Shown here: positions 4,121 through 16,789 of the stretch, piece by piece
How the letters are laid out: every line of letters begins with the position of its first letter
Numbering within the stretch: position 1 is the stretch's first letter
Assembly (NCBI RefSeq): GCF_001422245.1
Contig: NZ_LMMM01000001.1
Coordinates: 373,422 to 437,421, forward strand
DNA: 64,000 bases
Direction: 5' to 3'
Source of the DNA: Rhizobium sp. Leaf262
Lineage (GTDB): Bacteria; Pseudomonadota; Alphaproteobacteria; Rhizobiales; Rhizobiaceae
Program-made: the position numbers and the translations under genes
The notes under the pieces: model-generated
What the model was told of the DNA's origin: nothing
Seen by the model: the letters and a program-made list of their open reading frames with translations, nothing else
Databases searched by the model: none

Positions 4121-4660
4121 ATGAAGTACGCGCTGGTTGATGGGCATCGCCATTAGGCTGCTGTCGGGCTTCGGGGTGTCTGTCAGGCGTGTGGTCTACC
4201 GATGACGCCCCGCTGTGGCCAGCAGAGGGTTCACCATTGGGCGCACAGAGCGGCAAACTGTGACGAATGGTGGGAACGGGAAACTGCCTGGCTTCGTGAT
4301 TGGAAGAACGAGTTCCCGCAAGAATTACATTCCGGAGTTTTCTGTCAGCCGATATTCCGGACTACGGTGCGGCGCGGGGCTGGCGATTGCCGTTGCGTCG
4401 TTTCCCGCTGATTGATCATTGGATATCCGCGACCCGTCCTGTGTTCTTGGACTTTGGTGATACGAACTTCGTAGGCTGGGGACGTCCTGCCATTCGGCTA
4501 CTCTGGCGGATCAGCAAATCCCTAGCTTTCGCATTGTCGTCACACCGTTCACGAAACAGAACGTCATTGATCACTTCATGCAGGGTGTTCCGCTCGAAGG
4601 GTTCAATCACTCCCGAAGCCGCCAATTCGGGCAATGGACTATCGCGCAATGGACTGACCG
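4121..4660 (+). pseudogene. Decayed CoiA-like gene
   Basis: Starting at ATG 4121 the frame reads MKYALVDGHRH, then a TAG stop. It continues in the same frame through a CxxC pair and HHWAHRAANCDEWWERETAW, closely resembling the N-terminal part of CoiA-like proteins (competence/nuclease-like). After about 4330 the match moves to another frame (ATRPVFLDFGDTNFVGWG at about 4423-4480). It moves again to a third (FRIVVTPFTKQNVIDHF near 4520-4580, then MQGVPLEGF). So there is at least one nonsense mutation and two frameshifts in one ancestral gene. The 783-bp space between 3984 and 4766 is otherwise empty. Confidence 0.7.
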
Positions 4661-4695
4661 TTGCACCGCGCCGATCTGTCCACAAACGTACACGT

Positions 4696-4772
4696 TAGTG
4701 CACATAGGTCTTGACGTGTGCATTAATCGTGCACTAAATGCTGTTCACGAAACATCATAGAGAATAGTGCAC
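4696..4772 (+). promoter_or_regulatory. GTGCAC repeat cluster upstream of serine recombinase
   Basis: TTAGTGCAC at 4696-4704 and its inverted copy GTGCACTAA at 4729-4737 flank a GTGTGCATTAAT segment. A third TAGTGCACAT lies at 4765-4774 and overlaps the start of the recombinase gene. Three GTGCAC hexamers within 75 bp at a recombinase start suggest an operator or a resolution (res-type) site. Function is inferred from position and symmetry only. Confidence 0.45.
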
Positions 4773-5351
4773 ATGGGGACGATTGTAGGATATGCGCGAG
4801 TAAGCTCGACAGGGCAGGACTACCAGACGCAAGTTGACAGGCTAATCGCGGAAGGGGCCACCAAGATATTCAGTGAGAAGCAATCTGGTCTTGACGACGA
4901 CAGGCCGGAGCTTGCCAAGTGCCTCGACTATGTTCGAGAGGGCGACACACTCATGGTCACGAAGCTGGACCGTCTAGCACGTTCCGCCGTTCATCTTCAC
5001 CAGATAGTAGACAGTTTGAATAAGGATAACGTCGGCTTCAAGGTGCTGGACGACGCCAGCCTCGACACGACGACACGCACAGGAAAGCTGGTTTTTGGCA
5101 TCCTTGCCAGCATTGCACAGTTTGAAACTGAATTGCGAAAAGAGCGTCAGCTTGAGGGTATAGCCAAGGCTAAGGCCAAGGCGGAGAAGGCTGGAACCCC
5201 GTGGATCACCGGACGGCCTGTCTCACTCGATCACGAGGAAATCAGGAAGCTCCGGGCCGATGGACTGTCTGTAAGGCAGATCGCTAAAGAGGTCGGTTGC
5301 TCCTCATCAGCCGTACAAAAGGTGCTTAATTCTGCCAAAGCGGAGGCGTAA
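4773..5351 (+). CDS. Serine recombinase (resolvase/invertase family), 192 aa
   Basis: Site-specific DNA recombinase of the small serine family. The N-terminus GTIVGYARVSSTGQD carries the catalytic serine in the YARVS motif. TKLDRLARS and IAQFETELRKERQLEGI are the usual active-site and E-helix segments. The C-terminus (DHEEIRKLRADGLSVRQIAK and onward) is a helix-turn-helix of the Hin/resolvase type. Length is typical (about 180-200 aa). An in-frame GTG at 4767 is possible, but ATG 4773 gives the canonical N-terminus. It may resolve or invert element DNA; the GTGCAC repeats just upstream are the obvious candidate site. Confidence 0.9.
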   Translation: MGTIVGYARVSSTGQDYQTQVDRLIAEGATKIFSEKQSGLDDDRPELAKCLDYVREGDTLMVTKLDRLARSAVHLHQIVDSLNKDNVGFKVLDDASLDTTTRTGKLVFGILASIAQFETELRKERQLEGIAKAKAKAEKAGTPWITGRPVSLDHEEIRKLRADGLSVRQIAKEVGCSSSAVQKVLNSAKAEA

Positions 5352-5353
5352 TC

Positions 5354-5449
5354 ATGGAATTCTTGATCCTCATTGCGTGCTGGATCGCGCTGGGCGCTTT
5401 GGCGTTTGGCGGCATCGCTTCCGTTTTGAATAGTCTGTTCGGTCGGTAG
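5354..5449 (+). CDS. Small single-span membrane peptide, 31 aa
   Basis: ATG at 5354 lies two bases after the recombinase stop and is preceded by GGAGG at 5342-5346, a strong ribosome site. The product starts MEFLILIACWIALGALAFGG and ends NSLFGR: one hydrophobic span of about 22 residues with a basic end. The position suggests co-translation with the recombinase. Holin-like, toxin-like or regulatory peptides have this shape, but nothing here fixes the role. The following 200 bp up to 5649 hold no gene I can support. Confidence 0.5.
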   Translation: MEFLILIACWIALGALAFGGIASVLNSLFGR

Positions 5450-5649: not shown

Positions 5650-5883
5650 ATGCAAACCAGTCGACAACAGAAATCCGCCGTCCCGCTCGACTACAGCGTG
5701 TCGGACATGACCATTGCCGCAGAGTTCATCATGACGGCCATGCGGGCGGCAGTGAACGGGCATCCGGTCATGAGCGCCGACGTGGTGCGACCGTTGAAAT
5801 GGGCGCGTGCCAAGATCGATGAGGTGTTGGCACAGGCCGAAAGTGCCGCCGCAGTCGTTCCCCTCGCCAACAGGGAGGCGTGA
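5650..5883 (+). CDS. Hypothetical protein, 77 aa, upstream of integrase
   Basis: Small soluble protein (MQTSRQQKSAVPLDYSVSDM...) with a helical core ending in an alanine-rich tail. A GTG at 5548 in the same frame would add 34 residues, but ATG 5650 has a purine-rich GGGGG ribosome site and gives a compact product. Its stop lies one base before the integrase ATG, so the two are translated together. The position just upstream of a tyrosine integrase is where excisionase or other accessory directionality proteins often sit. No excisionase motif is evident, so this stays an inference. Confidence 0.6.
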   Translation: MQTSRQQKSAVPLDYSVSDMTIAAEFIMTAMRAAVNGHPVMSADVVRPLKWARAKIDEVLAQAESAAAVVPLANREA

Positions 5884-5884
5884 T

Positions 5885-6955
5885 ATGGCCCGACAGAGAG
5901 GCAATAAGTGGCAAGCAGACGTCACCCTTGAGGACGGCAATCGCTTCCGGCCTACATTCCCGACAGAGGAACATGCAACCAAATGGGAGGTTGCTGCCCG
6001 CCACGCGATAGAAATGGGGAAACCTCTCCCGCCTGTTAGCATCCATATCAGTGGGTCTAAGACCCGCGACCTGTCTCTACTCGGATCATGCTTCGATTTC
6101 GTTAAGCGAACGGTCTGGTCTACACAAGCGCGGGGCGGCTCTGCGCAAATCCGCAACGGTCAGGCCGCTGTAGATTATTGGGGTAGAAACAAACCACTCG
6201 ATGAAATCAATTCCGCCGACGTTGCCGATTGGAAAGTCGATCTGGCTGACGAGGGCTATGCCCCGGCCACCATCAATCGCAAGGTCGCTGCGCTTTCTAA
6301 AATCCTCAAGACTGCTCGGGACGCCGGGGCCATTGAAAAGGTCCCGCCGATCAAATGGAACCGCGAGGAGAAGACACGCTTTCGGTTCCTTGACGAGATG
6401 GAGGAGCGCGCCATGCTGGCCTACTGGTCGGCACAGAACGATCAGGACAACTACGACCTCACGGTCTGCCTAATCGACACTGGAGCGCGCTGCTTTGCCG
6501 AGCTTATGCCAGTCAAGTGGAGTGCCTTCGGTCCGCAGTTCTCGACGGTCACTTTCTGGAAGACCAAGAGCGGCAAGCCGCGCACCGTTCCGCTCACCAA
6601 GCGGGTCCGTGAAATCCTCACTCGCCGCCAGAAAGAACACCGTGAACAGGTCGGCCCGTTCGGGATGCACAATCAGCACAAGATGCGCGACCGTTGGGAT
6701 GAGATGCGGGAGGTCTTGAACTTCCACGACGTCACACCCCACGTCCTCCGCCATACATGCTGCACTCGTCTGGTGCTGGCTGGTGTCGATATCAAGCGCG
6801 TCATGGAATGGATGGGCCACTCGGCCATTGTGACCACCATGCGCTACATGCAGATCAAGCCGAGAGGGCTGGAGGATATCCTTCACGTTCTGGAGGGGAC
6901 GCCTCAGAAGCCGAAGCGCGCACCGAAGATTGTTGCCAATCGCGCCGATCATTGA
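5885..6955 (+). CDS. Tyrosine-type site-specific integrase, 356 aa
   Basis: Phage-type integrase. The N-terminus (MARQRGNKWQADVTLEDG) is an arm-binding-like segment, followed by a SAM-like core-binding domain (about residues 60-150). The catalytic domain shows LIDTGARCFAELMPVKW (first catalytic Arg), the HVLRHTCCTRLV box (H-x-x-R), WMGHS (G-H) and TTMRYMQ with the nucleophilic Tyr. ATG 5885 has GGGAGG seven bases upstream; an open frame further upstream (from 5807) overlaps the previous gene and is unlikely to be used. It should integrate and excise the element in this accessory region. Confidence 0.93.
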   Translation: MARQRGNKWQADVTLEDGNRFRPTFPTEEHATKWEVAARHAIEMGKPLPPVSIHISGSKTRDLSLLGSCFDFVKRTVWSTQARGGSAQIRNGQAAVDYWGRNKPLDEINSADVADWKVDLADEGYAPATINRKVAALSKILKTARDAGAIEKVPPIKWNREEKTRFRFLDEMEERAMLAYWSAQNDQDNYDLTVCLIDTGARCFAELMPVKWSAFGPQFSTVTFWKTKSGKPRTVPLTKRVREILTRRQKEHREQVGPFGMHNQHKMRDRWDEMREVLNFHDVTPHVLRHTCCTRLVLAGVDIKRVMEWMGHSAIVTTMRYMQIKPRGLEDILHVLEGTPQKPKRAPKIVANRADH

Positions 6956-9047: not shown

Positions 9048-9544
9048 TTGGCCTCATCTAACACTACCTCTATGCGCATTGTCGTCCACACTGACGGGTC
9101 TTGCCTTCACAATCCGGTCCCGGCGGATGGGGCGCAATTGTCTCCTTCTGGAATGGCGACACTCTGATAGAGCGTGTCGAACTTTCCGACGCCGATCTAG
9201 TCACCACAAACAATAAGATGGAATTGTCGGCAGCGATTGCAGCCCTTCAGCACATCCGCGCACTTCCACATTTCAGCCAATCCACTCCCATCACCGTCGT
9301 CAGTGACAGCCAATATGTCGTCAACGGTGTCAACGTCTGGCTACCGAATTGGGTCCGCAATGGCTGGCGGGCGTCGGACAAGAAACCTGTCAAAAATCAG
9401 GATCTATGGAAAGCCTTCGAATTCGCCACAGCGGGCCTGTCGGTGGCCTTCGAATGGGTCAGAGGCCACGCGGGCAACCCGGACAACGAAGCCGCTGATG
9501 CACTTGCTAGGGCCGCTGTAGAGCGCCTTCTTGCCCGTACCTGA
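9048..9544 (+). pseudogene. rnhA: Phage RNase HI gene with one frameshift
   Basis: RNase HI cleaves the RNA strand of RNA-DNA hybrids. TTG 9048 with AAAGGAGA upstream (or ATG 9072) reads RIVVHTDGSCLHNP, the first catalytic Asp segment. The rest, GPGGWGAIVSFWNGD onward, lies one frame away, so one base is missing near 9114-9117 (an expected GGG reads GG). Downstream the remaining catalytic positions are intact: KMELSAAI (Glu), VVSDSQYVVNG (Asp) and GHAGNPDNEAADALAR. The product would be about 165 aa if the base were restored. Either a natural inactivating deletion or a sequencing error in a G-run. Confidence 0.8.
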
Positions 9545-9627: not shown

Positions 9628-12600
9628 ATGAACACGAGACTTGCAGACGCCATCAAGGCCGAGGCACAACGAATTGGCGCTAATCCCGCAGACCTTGCCA
9701 CCGTCATGTCCTACGAAACCGGCGGCACCTTCGACGTGTGGAAGAAAGGCCCGACGACGCAATGGGGCGTCCACCGTGGCCTGATCCAGATGGGTGAGCC
9801 GGAACAGCGCAAATATAACTACCACAAGGACATGCCCGTTCAGGACGCCGTTGCGGCTTCTGCGAACTACCTCGTGGATCGCGGCTTCAAGCCCGGAATG
9901 GGTCTTCTCGAAATGTATTCGGCTATCAACGCCGGTTCCATTGGGGAGAAGTATTATGGACGCAGTGACGCCAACAACGGCGGCGCTCCGGGCACCGTTC
10001 GGGACAAGGTGAACAACCAGATGGAAGGCCATAAGGCTAAGGCTGTGGCGCTTCTCAACGGTGAGTTCCAGCCTTCCGAGCGAACCTATTTCGACACCCC
10101 GGCTGGCGAGAGCCGACCGGAGTCAAATCCATACCAGTATCAGGACGTGTCAGCGCCATCCCCGAAGACGGTGGTCGATATCAACACGCAGCCCGCAGGA
10201 CCGTCCAACAGCGGCTTTTGGGGCGACTTCAAGGACAGTTTTCTGTCCTCTTCGATCACCGCTCAGACGATCCGGTGGATGACCGAGGGTGGCATAGATC
10301 CCGATTTCCAGATTGGCGAGGAGCGCGGAATGAAGCTCTCCAAGCAATACCCGGAAATGTACCACGACTTCCTCTTCTCCTCGTCCTCCGATCTGGTTCT
10401 ACGCCAGCGAATGCAATGGGCTGATCAGGATGCAAAGCGACAGGAGCGCCTCGCAGGGGGGCGGCTGGAGAGCAACAGGTGCTGGCCTACTGGCTGGTGC
10501 TGCTGACCCTCTACCACTCGCTCTAGGTATCGCCACGGGCGGTATTGGCGCGGGTGCGGTGGCTGGTATGGGGATGGCTGCGAGAGTGGGTATCGGTGCG
10601 GCCTCTGGAGCCATATCGAACGCCTCCGTCGATTGGGCCTCTGCTGCCCTGACAGACAACCCTTACGCCGACCCGTTCTTGGCCGGTGGTGCCGGTGCAA
10701 TCTTCGGTGCCCTTGGCGGCGCTCTTGCCCGCTCGGCTGGCTCACAGTTCGAAAGCTCTCTCGCTCACGAGATCGGCAATCGCTTTGAGGCGGAGAACCG
10801 GCGACTGATCCCGCCACGCTCAGAGACTCCACGGTTCGATGACGACGATATCCTTCCAGTCTCCGGCCCAACAGGCAGCGGCGGCGCGGCTCGCAACACG
10901 CAGAAGCGGGACAGCCTGATCGGTGACGATGCGGGCGAACTCATTCGGATGCGTGACGAGGACGTCGGGCGCGGTTTCGGCGGCTGGCTCCGCAAGGGTG
11001 ACGTCACGGGTCAGATGACCACTGACGCAAACCCCGTCACCCGCATGATCGGTGCGAACTTCTTCGAAGAGACAGCGGGCTTCACCGATCACTCGGTAGT
11101 CCCCGATAGCGTCAACTCTAAGATGACCGCCATGCACCGCAAGTACGTCGGTGATTTCAACGTCGAGTTCATCCCGGCGAAGAAGGCGTATATCTCGGAA
11201 GGTGGACAGTTCTCTCTCAACCTGGCCGCACGGGGACGCCGTGGGGATGAGTTCAACAGTCTCGTCTCGGCCTACATTCGTGATCCCGCTCCGTCACCCG
11301 ATACAAGCCCTCATGTGGTCAAAGCGGGTAACGCACTGCGCAAAAGCATGGCGAACTTTGCGCGGGAAATGAAGGAAGCTGGACTGTGGTCTGGCAGCGC
11401 AGATGAGAACTATCTGCCCTACATCGCCAACCACGCGAAGATTTCTCAGCTTGACGAGCTGATCCACCAAGACGCCATGGAAGCCTTCTTCAAGGCGGCG
11501 ATCATCAAGCACTCACCGGAGCTTGGAGACGACCTCGCAAAGCGCATGGCTCGGGGCTATTGGGGCAACATTCGCAAGGCCGGATACGGTATTGACGACG
11601 GCCTTTCTCGGTCGCTTCATCTGAACGATCGTGAAGCCTTCAAGCAGTCCTTCTTCGAAAACCTCGACAACAAGAACCTGCTCACCGACGAGGAGCTTGA
11701 GAAAGTCTTTGATACCCTCTCGGGGCTGATGGATGAAACCAAGAAGTCGGTCGAACCGAGCAAGGGCGTTGGCTACCTCAAGCGTCGCACACTGATGGAC
11801 TACAACGAGCAGTTCTCGGTGCCTCTCAGGGTCCCGAGCAACGGCCAGACGCATATGAAGCTCAAGGTCAGCGATCTCTTCGAGGACGACGCCGAGCTTC
11901 TATTCCACCGCTACGCTCGCACCATGTCGGGCCGCGTATCGTTCGCCAAGCAGCAGTTCATCAACCCTACCTCCGGGGAAGTGATGATGGATGGCATCAA
12001 GTCCGAAACGGACCTAGCCAAGCTGATGAACATGGTCCGCGAGAGCTACCGGCTCATGCCGGGGAACTACAATGACAAGAAGGAAGCTATGGAAAATGCA
12101 CTTAGAAATATCGAGTTCGGTTGGAAGCGCATCAATGGCATTCCTGTCTTCGACAACTCTGGGGCCTACGCGAAGTGGGCGCGTCGCATCAAAGCCGCAC
12201 AGTTCATCCGACTCATGTCGAACATGGGCTTGAACCAAGTCCAAGAGGGGTGGAAGCTGATCTCTCTGACGGGCTTCCGGGCGTCGTTGAGCCAACTTCC
12301 GGCTATCCGCACTATGGTCGCGGGGATCAACTCCGGGGCCTTCAAGCAGGACAAGTTGCTTAGAGAGCTTACGGACATGACCGGCATTGGTCTGGAGGGT
12401 CTTTGGAACAAGTTCGATTTCCGTCTGGACGAAGACCGGATAGGGGAGGGGTTGTCCAGCAGGATCGGCCAGAAGGTTGATGCAGCCCTTGAGGCTGGTC
12501 AGCAGTTGACGGCGCAAGTCTCATTCATGCGTGCCATCAGCGACTATCAGCAGCGGTGGGCGATGAAGGCGATCACTCAGCAGATTGCGGCGATGGCTCG

Positions 12601-13425
12601 AAAGGCGAAGATCGGGGACGACGCTTTTGACTTCTCCAAGATCAAGCTCAGGGACCGCGAACGACTGGCCTCCATCGGTCTCGGGGACAGGGATGCGCAA
12701 CTGCTGTTCAAGAACTTGCTGAACCATAGCGAATTTGACGGCGGAAAGATCGTCGGCGTCAACGTCGGCAAGTGGGATGCCGAAGCAGTCTCGAAGTTCC
12801 GCACCTTCATGGGCCGCTATACCGACCGTCTGGTTCAGGCGAACGATTATGGGGCCTTGTCCAAATGGATGAGTCACCCTGTCGCCAGCATGTTCACACA
12901 GTTTCGATCCTTCGTTTTCGGCGCTTGGGCCAAGTCCACCCTTTGGACTGCCAACCATGGCATCCTAAAGGACCCCCGAATGATGGTCATGGTCATGGGT
13001 GAATTGGCTGCTGGAACGGCGACGTATGTGGTTCGTCAGGCTGGCCAGACTTCCACTGACGACGGCTTCGACAAGTTCTGGGAAGAGGACATGAAGCCCG
13101 AGAACCTGATCAAGAACGGCTTTGCCCGCACTGCGACCGCTTCGGTGGTCCCAATGTTTGCCGATAGTCTGCTTATGATGACCCCGATTGGCCCGCAGTT
13201 TGGCAATGCGCGTTCGTCAGGCTCGCCGACAGAGACGTTCTTCGGCACTCCCGCCGCCGACCAGATCAACTCGGCTAGGGCGTTTTCGTCCGGGCTGATG
13301 GATATAGCGTTTGGAACGACCGGGACTTGACCCAGAGCGAAATCAGGTCTGCCGTCAGGGCGTTCGTTCCGCTTGCAAATTGGGTGCCGTTCACGGCAGC
13401 GCTTGGGGCGCTGATTGAGGACTGA
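9628..13425 (+). pseudogene. T7-like internal virion protein/transglycosylase, two frameshifts
   Basis: Residues 1-110 form a lysozyme-like transglycosylase domain, with MSYETGGTFDVW (Glu30 the likely catalytic residue) and SAINAGSIGEKYYG, as in podovirus internal core proteins that pierce the cell wall during DNA ejection. The frame breaks near 10456, where a run of six G should be five. It continues in the second frame (GGWRATGAGLLAGAADPLPL onward) to 13330. There a missing C (ACCGGG for ACCCGGG, near 13320) returns it to the first frame, giving DLTQSEIRSAVRAFVPLANW to the TGA at 13423-13425. The restored length, about 1,265 aa, matches T7 gp16-like proteins. The middle has Gly/Ala-rich hydrophobic segments (about 285-360). 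No capsid, portal or tail genes are nearby. Confidence 0.8.
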
Positions 13426-13498
13426 CCAGTTTCTAGAAGGTGAGAGTCTAGGGTCGGTTTGCACAGGGCACTCATTCCAGAGTTCTAAAATCGGGAAA

Positions 13499-13521
13499 AA
13501 AGTTCACTGACAGCGAACTTT
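13499..13521 (+). terminator. Hairpin after virion gene
   Basis: AAAGTTC (13499-13505) and GAACTTT (13515-13521) form a 7-bp AT-rich inverted repeat with a 9-base loop, 70 bp after the virion gene. It could be a weak terminator or a 5' boundary element of the retron region. Confidence 0.35.
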
Positions 13522-13559
13522 ATTCTTGCGTAAAAGCATTCGATGAACTATCTATGATC

Positions 13560-13800
13560 TCGTTAGTTAAACGGAATTAAGTTCATCACACCTTGGACTC
13601 TTCGGAGTTCGCGGAGGGGCAACCCTCTACTGCTTACCCGGCCCACGGCCCTTGGACCCTCCGAGGACGATGGCGGGCGAAGCGAGACCCCGGATGACCT
13701 GGGGTCTCTTGGTATATTGGTTAAGTCGTCGTGTTCCGCGCGATCTGTCGAGATGACCCCAAACCACAATCCCGTGGGGAGGGCGACAGAGAGGAGGTCA
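13560..13800 (+). ncRNA. Candidate retron msr-msd RNA region
   Basis: Several hairpins are packed in non-coding DNA just upstream of the retron genes. GAGGG-GCAA-CCCTC (13614-13627) has a GNRA loop. CGGAGGG (13612-13618) can alternatively pair with CCCTCCG (13657-13663). GAGACCCC (13684-13691) pairs perfectly with GGGGTCTC (13701-13708). A GACCCC at 13755-13760 could compete for the same GGGGTC. CCTTGGAC occurs twice 59 bp apart. Retrons keep their msr-msd upstream of the RT operon, which fits. I could not identify the a1/a2 repeats or branching G, so exact ends are unknown. Confidence 0.4.
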
Positions 13801-13802
13801 AA

Positions 13803-13967
13803 ATGACCTTAGAAACTAACGAACGACGACAGCGACTGAAAAGGACGCGAAACTTTCCCAAGTGGGTTCGTGGCGCTGCCCTGCTAAAATGGACTTTCCG
13901 ATTGGGGACGTTCCTATACCGCCTTTGGCGTATTTGGAATTGGTTCAACGGTGATCCCGACAGCTAA
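13803..13967 (+). CDS. Small cationic Trp-rich peptide, 54 aa (retron-associated?)
   Basis: ATG 13803 has a very strong GAGGAGGT ribosome site; a GTG at 13731 in frame is far less likely. The product begins MTLETNERRQRLKRTRNFPK. Its second half (WVRGAALLKWTFRLGTFLYR and then LWRIWNWF) is cationic and amphipathic, with many W, F, L and R. That profile fits a membrane-active peptide or small effector. It lies 38 bp upstream of the HTH gene and the RT, downstream of the structured RNA region, so it is probably part of the retron operon. No homologue is known to me. Confidence 0.6.
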   Translation: MTLETNERRQRLKRTRNFPKWVRGAALLKWTFRLGTFLYRLWRIWNWFNGDPDS

Positions 13968-14005
13968 GTCGCTTCCAATGTATTCTCACTGGAAAGGACC
14001 GTATC

Positions 14006-14293
14006 ATGTTATCCGAGGCGTTGCGGCTTATCCGCGTCTACCACGATCTCAAGCAGCAGGACCTTGCCGAGAAGCTTGAGATATCGAAATCGTATCTTTC
14101 CGAGATTGAAAGCGGCAAGAAAACTCCAACAATTGAATTGATCGAGAAGTATGCCTCCCAATTTGGCATACCTGCGTCGTCCATATTGTTTTTCTCTGAG
14201 AACCTTGAGGACCCGAGTAAGGCATCAAAAGTGAAGGGCGCCATAGCTGGTAAGGTTTTGCAGTTCCTTCAATTCGTTGAGGCTCGTACGTAA
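14006..14293 (+). CDS. XRE/Cro-type HTH protein, retron partner, 95 aa
   Basis: Residues 1-65 form a classic lambda-repressor-like HTH: LKQQDLAEKLEISKSYLSEI followed by ESGKKTPTIELIEKYASQFG. The remaining 30 residues are a short helical tail. The ribosome site is GGAAAGGA. Its TAA directly abuts the TTG start of the reverse transcriptase, so the two are strongly coupled. In retron systems such an HTH protein occurs as the RT partner (to my recollection, the HTH-associated class called type VI). It may repress the operon, bind msDNA, or act as an antitoxin-like subunit. Confidence 0.85.
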   Translation: MLSEALRLIRVYHDLKQQDLAEKLEISKSYLSEIESGKKTPTIELIEKYASQFGIPASSILFFSENLEDPSKASKVKGAIAGKVLQFLQFVEART

Positions 14294-15202
14294 TTGACGG
14301 ATCGGCGCACGTACTCTCTTCGCGACAGCCCATTTTTCCGCCTTCGGTCGAAAGCGAAGCTCGCAAGCCTTTTGTACGTGTCGCGTGAAAAATTGGAAAC
14401 GCTCTCCGTCGGCGAGCATCGGTATTTCGAGTTCACCAAGCCTAAGAAATCAGGCGGCGTTAGGAAGATCAGTGCGCCCAACGCACCTCTCAAGGCGGTG
14501 CAATCGCGGATTGCCGACCTGTTGAGGCGGGTTACTCCACCTGACTATCTATTCGCGCCCGTGCCGGGGCGGTCATACGCAGATAATGCGGCATTTCATA
14601 TCGGTGCGCGATCAATCCGGCTACTAGATATTGAGGACTTCTTCCCAAGTTGCACCGTGAAAAAAGCCATCTGGTTCTTCCGCACTCGGATGGAATGCTC
14701 TGACGACGTAGCGGTGATTTTGGCGAACATCGTAACCTTCAACGGCGCTTTGCCCCAAGGAAGCCCATGTAGTCCTATTCTCGCGTACCTTTGCTATGTC
14801 GACATGTGGGCGGAAATTGCCAAGCTCGTAGAGAACTGTGGGTGCAAACTCAGCGTCTACGCAGACGATCTCACCATTTCCGGTGTGTCAGTCCCAGAGG
14901 CTCAGATATGGGAGATAAAGAAGACCCTGTATCGTCATGGCCATCGATACGCACGAAGCAAGGAGCGATCAGTACGCGACAAGTCAGTCGAGGTGACCGG
15001 CGTAGTCCTTTTGAGGAGCGGTGTGGTGGCCCCCAATCGTCAACATGCGAAGATCGCCAAGGTGCGGGAAGAAATCACCCGCACTGCATCTGCTGACCAT
15101 AAGAAGGCACTTGAAAGCCAGCTTCGTGGTCGATTGGCTCAGGTCGGGCAAATCGCAGCAGCCGATCAGCGGCGAAGGGCATCTGAGGCGGCAAAAACGT
15201 AG
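14294..15202 (+). CDS. Retron-type reverse transcriptase, 302 aa
   Basis: RNA-directed DNA polymerase that would make msDNA from the retron RNA. Visible motifs: VRKISAPNAPLKAVQSRI (RT0-1 region, about 56-73), LDIEDFFPSC with catalytic D112, LPQGSPCSPILAYL (about 153-166), YADDLTISG with D191/D192, and VTGVVL (about 234-239), the VTG signature of retron RTs. No maturase, primase or variable-repeat features are present. The start is TTG 14294, immediately after the HTH stop; the conserved N-terminus FFRLRSKAKLASLLYVSREK supports it. Length (about 300 aa) is normal. It is the last gene before the tRNA boundary of the element. Confidence 0.95.
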   Translation: MTDRRTYSLRDSPFFRLRSKAKLASLLYVSREKLETLSVGEHRYFEFTKPKKSGGVRKISAPNAPLKAVQSRIADLLRRVTPPDYLFAPVPGRSYADNAAFHIGARSIRLLDIEDFFPSCTVKKAIWFFRTRMECSDDVAVILANIVTFNGALPQGSPCSPILAYLCYVDMWAEIAKLVENCGCKLSVYADDLTISGVSVPEAQIWEIKKTLYRHGHRYARSKERSVRDKSVEVTGVVLLRSGVVAPNRQHAKIAKVREEITRTASADHKKALESQLRGRLAQVGQIAAADQRRRASEAAKT

Positions 15203-15309
15203 GCCTCAAAAACTTGGTCGGAAATGTTGGTTGGAGTTGGTCGGACGAATTAGCGGATCTGGCCACTAAGAAATTGATATCTCTATCAAATCCATACGTG
15301 TGGAAAATT

Positions 15310-15385
<76 letters not shown>

Positions 15386-15490
15386 ATAAGGGTTCCGGTA
15401 TTCTTCAATCCGGTTCCGGGAACCGAAGCAGTTGTCTGCGTCGGTGGCGGCTTGATACTTGTGGTTCGGGAAGATGGCAAGCCGAAAATT

Positions 15491-15522
15491 TCGCCCGACG
15501 ACATTTTTTTGACGTCGGGCGA
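15491..15522 (-). terminator. Terminator of the TIGR02300-family gene
   Basis: TCGCCCGACG (15491-15500) and CGTCGGGCGA (15513-15522) form a perfect 10-bp stem. On the minus strand it is followed by AATTTTC. It lies 16 bp after the stop of the minus-strand gene. Confidence 0.6.
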
Positions 15523-15537
15523 GGAATTCTGTGGAAA

Positions 15538-15924
15538 TCAGGTTTCGTCGTCGTCGCCGTTCACGCCGATGATGCCCGAAACGTCATCGTCGTCTTCGTC
15601 TTCGTCTGCTTCCAGGAACGTGTCGTCGTCATCGTCCAGTTCGACATCGTCGTCACCTTCGATATCGGGGATATCGTCGCCGTTGGAATCGCTGTCGGCA
15701 TCTTCCAGAGGCACGAGCTCGACTTCCGTGTTCTCGGTATCGACTTCTGCGACTTCCTCTTCTTCAGCCTGCTCCATCTTCTTTGCTGCTGTGGTTTCCT
15801 CGAAGAAGGAAAGCGGCCAGGACTTGCCGGAGTAAGGAGATACGATGGGGTCGCGGTTCAGGTCGTAAAATTTCTTGCCGGTATCAGGGTCTGTACGCTT
15901 GGTTCCAAGGTCCGCTTTTGCCAC
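15538..15924 (-). CDS. TIGR02300 family protein, 128 aa
   Basis: The N-terminus MAKADLGTKRTDPDTGKKFY continues as DLNRDPIVSPYSGKSWPLSF, the conserved head of this alphaproteobacterial family of unknown function. From residue 48 the chain becomes extremely acidic, with long D/E runs (DDDVELDDDDD, ADEDEDDDD), typical for the family and probably disordered. In relatives the head carries cysteines in a zinc-ribbon-like arrangement; here those positions read D and T (KRTDPDTG), so metal binding seems lost. It is transcribed away from cmk. Confidence 0.85.
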   Translation of the reverse strand: MAKADLGTKRTDPDTGKKFYDLNRDPIVSPYSGKSWPLSFFEETTAAKKMEQAEEEEVAEVDTENTEVELVPLEDADSDSNGDDIPDIEGDDDVELDDDDDTFLEADEDEDDDDVSGIIGVNGDDDET

Positions 15925-16094
15925 TGTCTAAGCCTCGAATTGTAAGGTGGGTTCGGTGTTTGTGCCGTATTTCCGGCAGTACACGGTAAATTTCTAGCCG
16001 GTCCCATTAATCGCTGATGCCTTTCCTGTCAAAGATAAACTTTAAAGAGCGACGTTGCGTGATATGTCCGGCGTGTCTTGATGATCGGCGGCAT

Positions 16095-16109
16095 GGCTTA
16101 TAATAAGCC
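16095..16109. promoter_or_regulatory. Palindrome upstream of cmk
   Basis: GGCTTAT-A-ATAAGCC is a perfect 7+7 inverted repeat containing TATAAT, 48 bp before the cmk start. It could be the -10 region with an overlapping operator. Confidence 0.4.
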
Positions 16110-16156
16110 TTTGCCAAGCAGACAGGCCCCAGTCCAAAGCAGCAGGATATATTATA

Positions 16157-16789
16157 ATGACATTCACGATCGCCATCGATGGTCCCGCCGCTGCAGGCAA
16201 GGGAACGCTGTCTCGCCGGATCGCCGAGGTCTATGGTTTTCATCATCTCGATACCGGACTGACCTACAGGGCAACAGCGAAAGCATTGCTGGATGCCGGT
16301 CTGCCGCTTGATGACGAGACGATTGCGGAAAAGGTGGCGCTGGATCTGGAGCTTGCCGGACTTGACCGCGCGGTGCTGGCCAAGCACGAGGTCGGCGAGG
16401 CCGCCTCAAAGCTCGCAGTCATGCCTGCGGTACGGCGCGCACTGGTCAAGGCTCAGCGTTCTTTTGCCGACAGGGAGCCAGGAACGGTTCTGGATGGCAG
16501 AGACATCGGCACGGTTGTTTGCCCGGACGCAGCGGTAAAACTCTACGTCACTGCTTCTGCCGATGTGCGTGCGCGACGTCGCTATGACGAGATGATCGCA
16601 GCTGGAGAGAGCGCGGATTACGAGTCGGTTTTCGAAGATGTGAAAAAGCGTGACGAGCGGGATATGGGGCGTATCGACAGTCCTTTGAAACCGGCCGCAG
16701 ACGCACACTTGCTTGATACGTCTAAAATGGGTATAGAGGCGGCGTTTCAGGCAGCGAAGTCGATTATCGATGTTGCTTTGAAGCGGTGA
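16157..16789 (+). CDS. cmk: (d)CMP kinase
   Basis: Cytidylate kinase phosphorylates CMP and dCMP with ATP in pyrimidine nucleotide metabolism. The P-loop [11 protein letters not shown] is at residues 7-17. [13 protein letters not shown] and [15 protein letters not shown] form the CMP-binding segments, and RRRYDEM with KRDERDMGR form the lid and substrate loops. Length 210 aa is standard. It is followed by rpsA, the usual bacterial pairing, with 164 bp between them. The gene aroA, often directly upstream in Rhizobiales, is not here: only 232 bp separate cmk from the divergent TIGR02300-family gene. Confidence 0.95.

Follow-up and report, generated by a model that had tools for sequence, protein, structure and literature searches.

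A type VI retron in a 64,000-nt stretch of Rhizobium sp. Leaf262 (contig NZ_LMMM01000001.1; hereafter the window, whose positions serve as coordinates throughout) contains a small peptide gene over which the RNA appears to fold back. Across 70 leaders, a single leader segment just 5' of the element a2 partners the Shine-Dalgarno region of this gene, its codons ~5-13 and a post-stop element (R2), and the sequence comparisons below make it almost certain that the masking structure is real. By a narrow preference, we read the unit as one whose mRNA is inert in the manner of type I toxin mRNAs, with the masking strand probably located in the retron template. The PADLOC matches RT_VI and HTH_VI identify the locus as a type VI retron, a kind of bacterial genetic element with a probable role against viruses. 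Judged by its genes, it is a complete one, comprising leader/non-coding RNA (ncRNA), small peptide, helix-turn-helix (HTH) protein and reverse transcriptase (RT), and it is an ordinary member that no feature of the locus distinguishes from the type. The order on the plus strand is a leader of ~240 nt, a 54-codon open reading frame (ORF), the HTH gene and the RT gene; all features given below lie on that strand unless stated otherwise.

Relatives were drawn from whole genomes, plasmids, phages, GTDB contigs (the best 80 of 143) and viral contigs (45 loci); a scan of viral contigs with a single RT as the query returned no loci. A matching HTH gene was present in 112 of the 155 loci collected and missing from 43. 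Five loci with a weak and different HTH (L023, L024, L026, L127 and L146) were set aside by hand, and three others (L095, L101 and L104) were set aside at a contig edge. The 104 scored loci include the window's own and nine pairs identical in leader, ORF and R2, leaving 95 distinct, and were thinned to 70 distinct leaders for most tests. Their weakest HTH E-value was 1.1e-28; the picked start codon is doubtful in L007, L062 and L080, and L080 has masked bases. Named carriers comprise alpha- and gammaproteobacteria, cyanobacteria, a Burkholderia phage and a coliphage, and the loci lie on chromosomes, plasmids and phages. The genome of L002 and L003 also holds a second, distant RT ORF of 435 aa (G000 contig C17, 27796-28749) with a weak RT_VI match (1.4e-22), and on the Celeribacter plasmid L011 a TIR-domain gene (4411-5376) follows the type VI RT.

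Pairing was assessed by a partner-swap test, in which the duplex energy of a locus's own segments is compared with that of segments exchanged between loci, so that composition and conserved motifs are kept. The leader stretch -82..-45 paired with the Shine-Dalgarno region at z -10.9 (0/2000); in the window, this stem joins a 5' arm, TCTGTCG (13744-13750), to a 3' arm, CGACAGA (13784-13790), which abuts the Shine-Dalgarno sequence GAGGAGG (13791-13797) upstream of the ATG. Element M (GGTATATTGG, 13711-13720; tested as -96..-73) pairs with R2b (CCAATGTATT, 13975-13984) past the peptide stop, with z -9.7 for the post-stop stretch and -9.4 and -10.1 in the repeat (0/1000). Element T1 (GTCGTCGT, 13725-13732; tested as -84..-64) has its partner in the early codons at 13823-13830 (ORFa), and codons +12..+38 gave z -10.3 (0/2000). 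Codons +30..+48 against the stop-codon region gave z -9.2 (0/2000), with controls of its own between -1.1 and 0.5: ORFb (AGCGACT, 13831-13837) pairs with R2a (AGTCGCT, 13967-13973), the part of R2 (13967-13984) whose first nucleotide is also the final one of the stop codon. This helix was first noticed in RNAalifold output and swap-tested afterwards. Control windows, which we chose ourselves, ranged from z -1.2 to 1.6 across the swap tests. Four rounds of scanning covered 115, 52, 42 and 34 window pairs, among which a few further pairs reached z -3.2 to -3.9 and are not each explained. R2 gave no pairing signal with the HTH Shine-Dalgarno sequence (z 0.2). Two candidate pairings were unsupported and were dropped, namely M with the HTH start (z 0.5) and the peptide Shine-Dalgarno sequence with later codons (z 0.4).

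Compensatory change was counted in two MAFFT alignments, A2 (14 sequences including the window locus) and A3 (12 sequences), on structures drawn from single rows (L004, L032 and L010). Both sides had changed in 24/41 pairs in A2 and in 40/58 pairs in A3; covariation was 0.378 versus 0.187 in A2 and 0.410 versus 0.218 in A3, values reached by 0/500 shuffles in each case, and sliding the structures lowered it to 0.07-0.19. The T1-ORFa helix (helix 4 of A2) was paired in 93.8% of cells, with 6/8 pairs changed on both sides. Without any structure as input, RNAalifold returned the T1-codon and codon-stop helices in A2 and A3; of the other two, it returned the Shine-Dalgarno stem in A2 and, in A3, the core of the M-R2 helix. 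This evidence from aligned sequences gives good support to a fold in which leader, early codons and post-stop element meet at a three-way junction; the Shine-Dalgarno stem lies within it, and the remaining part of the ORF is looped out.

The predicted energetics point the same way. Folding of the 245-nt leader gave -100.5 kcal/mol (z -2.70; 0/200 shuffles as stable). The modelled cost of opening the ribosome site fell on average from 11.8 kcal/mol in the full RNA to 8.6 once the sequence 5' of -50 was removed, and the site became easier to open in 60/70 leaders; a control window went from 13.3 to 12.9 and was easier in 41/70. At the window locus, the modelled change was from 13.4 to 9.6 kcal/mol. 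We consider it likely that masking inhibits translation of the peptide. By eye, the window and its relative L031 could also form an alternative small Shine-Dalgarno/start-codon hairpin at 13791-13810 (GAGGUCA/UGACCUU), kept by a matched change.

The gene beneath this fold is the proposed effector, an ORF at 13803-13967 encoding a cationic peptide of 54 aa from an ATG start. An ORF of 47-77 aa ending 26-76 nt before the HTH gene was found in 104/104 scored type VI loci, with an ATG start in 100/104 and a Shine-Dalgarno match of at least 4 bases in 101/104. Right-sized ORFs without further criteria turned up in 39.8/70 leaders on average in shuffles, so their presence alone carries little information. 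An ATG, a Shine-Dalgarno match of at least 4 and a charge of at least +3 were combined in 65/70 leaders, whereas 20 rounds of dinucleotide shuffling gave a mean of 3.45 and never more than 7; a chance origin of the ORF is excluded. Seven close relatives form 21 pairs, and in the 20 for which it could be computed the ratio of nonsynonymous to synonymous substitution rates (dN/dS) was 0.04-0.42; the peptide genes of L032 and L004 show 15 synonymous against 3 nonsynonymous differences. By these sequence measures, the peptide gene is a conserved protein-coding gene of type VI retrons under purifying selection. Searches of Pfam, PADLOC and PHROG gave no match for the window peptide. In three of the loci set aside (L023, L024 and L026), the same place before the different HTH gene is taken by another kind of ORF, partly acidic and hydrophobic at its C-terminus; a parallel design is possible there.

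As to its make-up, the peptide has a basic N-terminal half (median charge +6) and a C-terminal half that is 52% hydrophobic across 70 peptides. The helical moment of the C-terminal half was 0.58 compared with 0.36 in shuffled halves, and it ranked in the top 10% in 60/70. AlphaFold2, run on a 28-sequence alignment, predicted one helix at residues 20-49 (block predicted local distance difference test score, pLDDT, 71-88) following a loose, low-confidence and helix-free N-terminus; the mean pLDDT of the model was 69.5. These predicted properties fit a membrane-active amphipathic peptide. The resemblance of the mRNA fold-back to type I toxin mRNAs favours a toxin, and by that analogy we consider toxicity of the peptide fairly probable.

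An earlier reading of this DNA, made from its letters and ORF translations (the sequence-only reading), had already pointed to the 54-aa peptide with its strong ribosome site and cationic character, and to a structured RNA region ahead of the genes. All of these stand, and the cationic, amphipathic make-up proves general among the 70 peptides. It had also proposed asking whether the peptide accompanies the HTH-RT pair in other Rhizobiales; the association holds in every scored locus and extends well beyond that order. Its suggestion that a third gene in such a unit was unreported does not hold: the available part of PMC8541194, citing Mestre 2020, states that type VI retrons possess small auxiliary proteins, so the presence of the peptide gene is not new.

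A second conserved control lies upstream. The putative HTH operator at 13503-13517 is an imperfect palindrome, TTCAC-TGACA-GCGAA, for which the family consensus is TTCGC-N5-GCGAA. With at most 1 mismatch, it was found in 58/70 leaders, with the N5 spacing in all 58, compared with a shuffle mean of 1.36 and maximum of 5 (100 rounds), using a consensus that was picked after the alignments had been inspected. A putative promoter, read from the sequence, follows at 13526-13554 (-35 TTGCGT at 13526-13531, a 17-nt spacer, and -10 TATCTA at 13549-13554). By eye, the operator usually lies just 5' of a -35-like sequence, of the TTCTTGA type in many relatives; in several cyanobacterial loci its distance upstream of the peptide is ~390-460 nt. 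The pairing of an invariant palindrome with a conserved HTH gene in one unit suggests autorepression, and on this pattern the HTH protein very probably represses through the TTCGC-N5-GCGAA operator. The sequence-only reading had cast the HTH protein as an antitoxin; it now appears to repress transcription through a conserved operator, not to be a direct antitoxin, and the proposed division of labour, with HTH and multicopy single-stranded DNA (msDNA) as antitoxin and sensor, is doubtful.

The leader also contains candidate elements of the retron RNA. Element a1 lies at 13581-13587 and is followed by two small hairpins of a putative msr (13593-13629), predicted by folding and covarying in A3 as helices 2 and 3. 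The putative msd hairpin, GAGACCCC/GGGGTCTC (13684-13708), is helix 2 of A2, with 98.2% of cells paired, and its loop, GATGAC at 13693-13698, is a copy of a2 (GATGAC, 13752-13757), which itself lies in the apical loop of the Shine-Dalgarno stem. Because the hairpin loop repeats a2, the TCATC of a1 (13583-13587) has two possible partners, a2 and the hairpin loop, and the loop of the msDNA would resemble a1. The a1:a2 pairs covary, with 97.6% of cells paired in A2 and 100% in A3. The triple of a1, hairpin loop (stem of at least 7) and a2 was present in 37/70 leaders, against a shuffle mean of 0.175 and maximum of 2 (200 rounds), counted with 5-mers in post hoc windows fixed after the 6-mer results; the earlier 6-mer test had given 14/70 against a null mean of 0.98 and maximum of 4. 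Rfam, searched over 12500-16500, matched the tRNA alone. In the usual retron layout, priming takes place at a1:a2; if the RT does so here, the masking strand would be copied first. The putative msd further holds GGCGAAGC at 13676-13683, which includes the operator half-site GCGAA and is seen in many relatives; GGCGAAGC may reflect contact of the HTH protein with msDNA, or merely msr-msd pairing.

These elements suggest the following mechanism. The mRNA fold would keep the peptide untranslated, as with type I toxin mRNAs, and the HTH protein, bound to the palindrome, would repress the operon as a second lock. The RT would prime at a1:a2, making the masking segment part of the msd; once that segment was copied and its RNA removed by RNase H, the peptide would be unmasked, in a counterpart of tisB/zorO 5' processing. 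Phage attack would shift the balance through some trigger, and the peptide would act as a membrane-active toxin and abortive-infection effector. That the RT unmasks the peptide rather than represses it is conceivable, at somewhat less than an even chance, and the polarity may be the opposite one, with the RT or msDNA holding the peptide back. If the msd lies where a1:a2 would place it, msDNA would match the peptide mRNA elements in sense and so would not repress by Shine-Dalgarno pairing. Taken further, and only tentatively, reverse transcription would itself be the toxin switch: the msd would be the masking strand, and msDNA synthesis plus RNase H would serve as the 5' processing that makes the ribosome site accessible. 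As a DNA version of the Shine-Dalgarno arm, the early codons, the post-stop element and the a1-equal hairpin loop, msDNA could then exchange strands with further leaders in trans. The retron would sense its own reverse-transcription state and signal it through translation of a killer peptide.

Several observations weigh against this reading. The priming site, and hence the masking strand as template, is its weakest step: the a1:a2 helix is 5-7 bp long and the match in the window ~5 bp, the broad-window swap test gave only z -1.7 for a1 with a2 (97/2000) and -2.7 for a1 with the loop, and 33/70 leaders fail the a1/loop/a2 triple as defined. With regard to the fold, the single-row origin of the counted structures inflates the share of cells paired, though not the double changes. 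RNAalifold missed the M-R2 helix in A2, where part of M paired with the msr region, and the Shine-Dalgarno stem in A3, where its 5' arm paired with a2; this stem is paired in 65.8% of cells in A3 and stops short of the Shine-Dalgarno sequence in L040. Its energy is weak relative to composition-matched shuffles (mean z -0.79, 4/38 below -2), a measure that we regard as uninformative here because the arms are pyrimidine- or purine-rich, so the partner-swap test was used in its place. Some windows pairing the leader with later codons reached z -3.2 to -3.6 without explanation, and a cut at -50 did not open 10/70 leaders, the coliphage locus L014 among them. As for the peptide, net charge is above 0 in 70/70 (median +9), which is partly circular because charge entered the ORF-picking score. 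The best 19-residue Kyte-Doolittle value of the window peptide is 0.55, giving no clear transmembrane segment, and a transmembrane-like hydropathy of 1.6 is reached by 24/70 peptides. L001 and L031 form the closest pair, and between them one of the shifted frames shows a synonymous excess at least as good as that of the coding frame.

Of the other explanations, the one that develops the proposal of the sequence-only reading has the RT, msDNA and HTH protein neutralising a translated peptide as an antitoxin, on the model of tripartite retron toxin-antitoxins, with phage-triggered damage to the msDNA freeing it. It follows general retron logic (see PMC12548924), all its parts occur together in every scored locus, and it is compatible with mRNA masking; the conserved control that is visible, however, acts at transcription through the operator and at translation through the fold-back, and we hold this account to be rather unlikely. 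A slightly smaller probability goes to the peptide being a basic RNA- or msDNA-binding cofactor, whose N-terminal half would bind the ncRNA and whose helix would bind the RT or HTH protein, with the fold limiting its dose. The Arg/Lys-rich, low-confidence N-terminal half, with a helix only from residue 20, and the presence of the RT gene in every scored locus would suit such a role, but the strongly amphipathic C-terminal half resembles membrane-active peptides, and the available part of PMC5668327 shows translational masking to be typical of toxins.

The small ORF could also be a regulatory leader peptide whose translation opens the junction at the stop codon and so controls the HTH and RT genes. 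R2 does begin at the stop codon, just ahead of the HTH gene; yet R2 shows no pairing with the HTH Shine-Dalgarno sequence, dN/dS and the helical moment show selection on the product itself, and this role is improbable. That the peptide belongs to an unrelated phage structural or lysis gene at a prophage edge was suggested by the prophage remnant adjoining the window retron, but the gene precedes the HTH gene in 104/104 loci, on chromosomes and plasmids and in cyanobacteria and several phages, and has no PHROG match; we rejected this candidate, whose probability is negligible. The inert, RNA-masked toxin mRNA remains the account that we prefer, with the strengths given above for its parts.

The remaining genes of the unit agree with the type. 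The RT ORF (14294-15202; 302 aa, TTG start) matches PADLOC RT_VI at 8.4e-92 as its best model, the next best scoring 2e-45, and contains the motifs LDIEDFF, YADD, VTG and NAAFH; the NAxxH motif is regarded as retron-specific. A profile of nine type VI RTs matched solved RTs of 13 distinct sequences, including those of retrons Ec67, Ec86 and Ec78. The HTH ORF (14006-14293; 95 aa), a putative autorepressor of the Cro/CI type, matches PADLOC HTH_VI (8.6e-38) and Pfam HTH_3 (9.7e-14), and its stop at 14293 directly abuts the RT start at 14294. The first three RT motifs and the coupling of the RT to an adjacent XRE-type HTH protein had been recognised by the sequence-only reading. So had the prophage edge: an integrase (5807-6955), matches to T7-like internal virion proteins (9628-13330) and a tRNA-Ala flank the retron. 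The unit that it delimited at 13560-15202 holds for the genes; its left limit does not, since the operator and promoter lie further left, at ~13503-13554.

The tRNA-Ala (GGC; 15310-15385, minus strand) marks the right edge of the prophage remnant, ~100 nt beyond the end of the RT gene and on the opposite strand. L031, the closest relative, carries a tRNA-Ala almost equally far away and is the only one of nine relatives scanned to have one. A search of the genome for a second copy of the tRNA 3' end (25-mer, at most 2 mismatches) gave none, so the tRNA-Ala is a candidate prophage attachment site only. The phrog_342 internal virion family at 9628-13330 spans two overlapping ORFs in different frames (profile positions 13-307 and 301-1193), which by their sequence are a frameshifted or split gene. 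The prophage remnant also contains an RNase HI gene at 9101-9544 (phrog_531, 1.7e-41), ~5 kb upstream of the RT gene. Retrons are said to need host RNase H.

Related units occur in enterobacteria and phages. Coliphage P2_2H1 (L014) carries a type VI retron (RT_VI 1.1e-105, HTH_VI 6.3e-30) with a 51-aa peptide and an RT that is 37.9% identical to the window's. RNAalifold found the same four helices in six sequences, from the coliphage, four Escherichia coli and one Klebsiella phage. P2_2H1-like retron DNA is present in 99/5426 complete E. coli genomes, 98 of which carry at least 80% of the unit. The remaining genome, that of E. coli C5 (L163, 2644-4073, near yeiP), has a more distant type VI retron at another site (RT_VI 1.6e-103, HTH_VI 1.2e-29); in a megablast of the P2_2H1 unit against it, the leader and part of the peptide gene matched and nothing else did, and the helix of codons with R2a shows a matched change between the two, from GCGCA/TGCGTCC in L014 to GCACA/TGTGTCC in L163. 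Shewanella phage MuM16-1 (L162; RT_VI 3.2e-96) has a 48-aa peptide ORF in the same place (689-835), unannotated in its record; p31 of that phage is, by the record's numbering, a different gene on the opposite strand from the peptide ORF.

The operator, the covarying junction over the small ORF and the loop that repeats a2 give base-by-base predictions, for which the coliphage P2_2H1 relative should be tractable. If reverse transcription does control toxin translation, this would be a new retron mode and a link to type I toxin-antitoxin mRNAs; even with the opposite direction of RT action, the peptide, operator and fold would be useful for finding and annotating type VI retrons. A limited literature search, including the accessible parts of PMC12548924, PMC8934634 and PMC9122126, found no description of the RNA masking, the operator or the function of the type VI small gene, and in the reachable literature type VI retrons have no described mechanism. 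The present analysis adds a conserved operator and an RNA fold-back over the small gene, which appear to be common to type VI.

Among known systems, the closest are type VI retrons as defined by PADLOC RT_VI/HTH_VI and the Mestre et al. 2020 classification: the window locus has the same profiles, gene order and structured RNA upstream, and likewise the small auxiliary gene named in the part of PMC8541194 available. The P2_2H1 retron and its E. coli relatives share the four helices and carry the 51-aa peptide while diverging in sequence. Retron-Sen2, Eco1 and Eco8 are reportedly tripartite retron toxin-antitoxins, which similarly combine RT, ncRNA and an accessory gene in one unit and probably act by abortive infection. 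Their known effectors are larger proteins controlled by an RT-msDNA complex, whereas the effector candidate here is a peptide of ~54 aa whose start would be masked by RNA. As for type I systems, the available part of PMC5668327 describes most of their toxins as small hydrophobic peptides and the mRNAs of tisB, dinQ, zorO and shoB as inert until the 5' end is processed; hok, tisB, dinQ, zorO and shoB share with the present locus a peptide of <60 aa and, as predicted for this locus, an inert mRNA with a sequestered ribosome site and a need for processing. Type I systems also have an antisense RNA as antitoxin. In contrast to those systems, the masking strand here seemingly belongs to the retron template, and the downstream genes encode an HTH repressor and an RT. 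We liken the locus to type I toxin-antitoxin systems by its peptide and predicted mRNA fold, and do not file it as type I.

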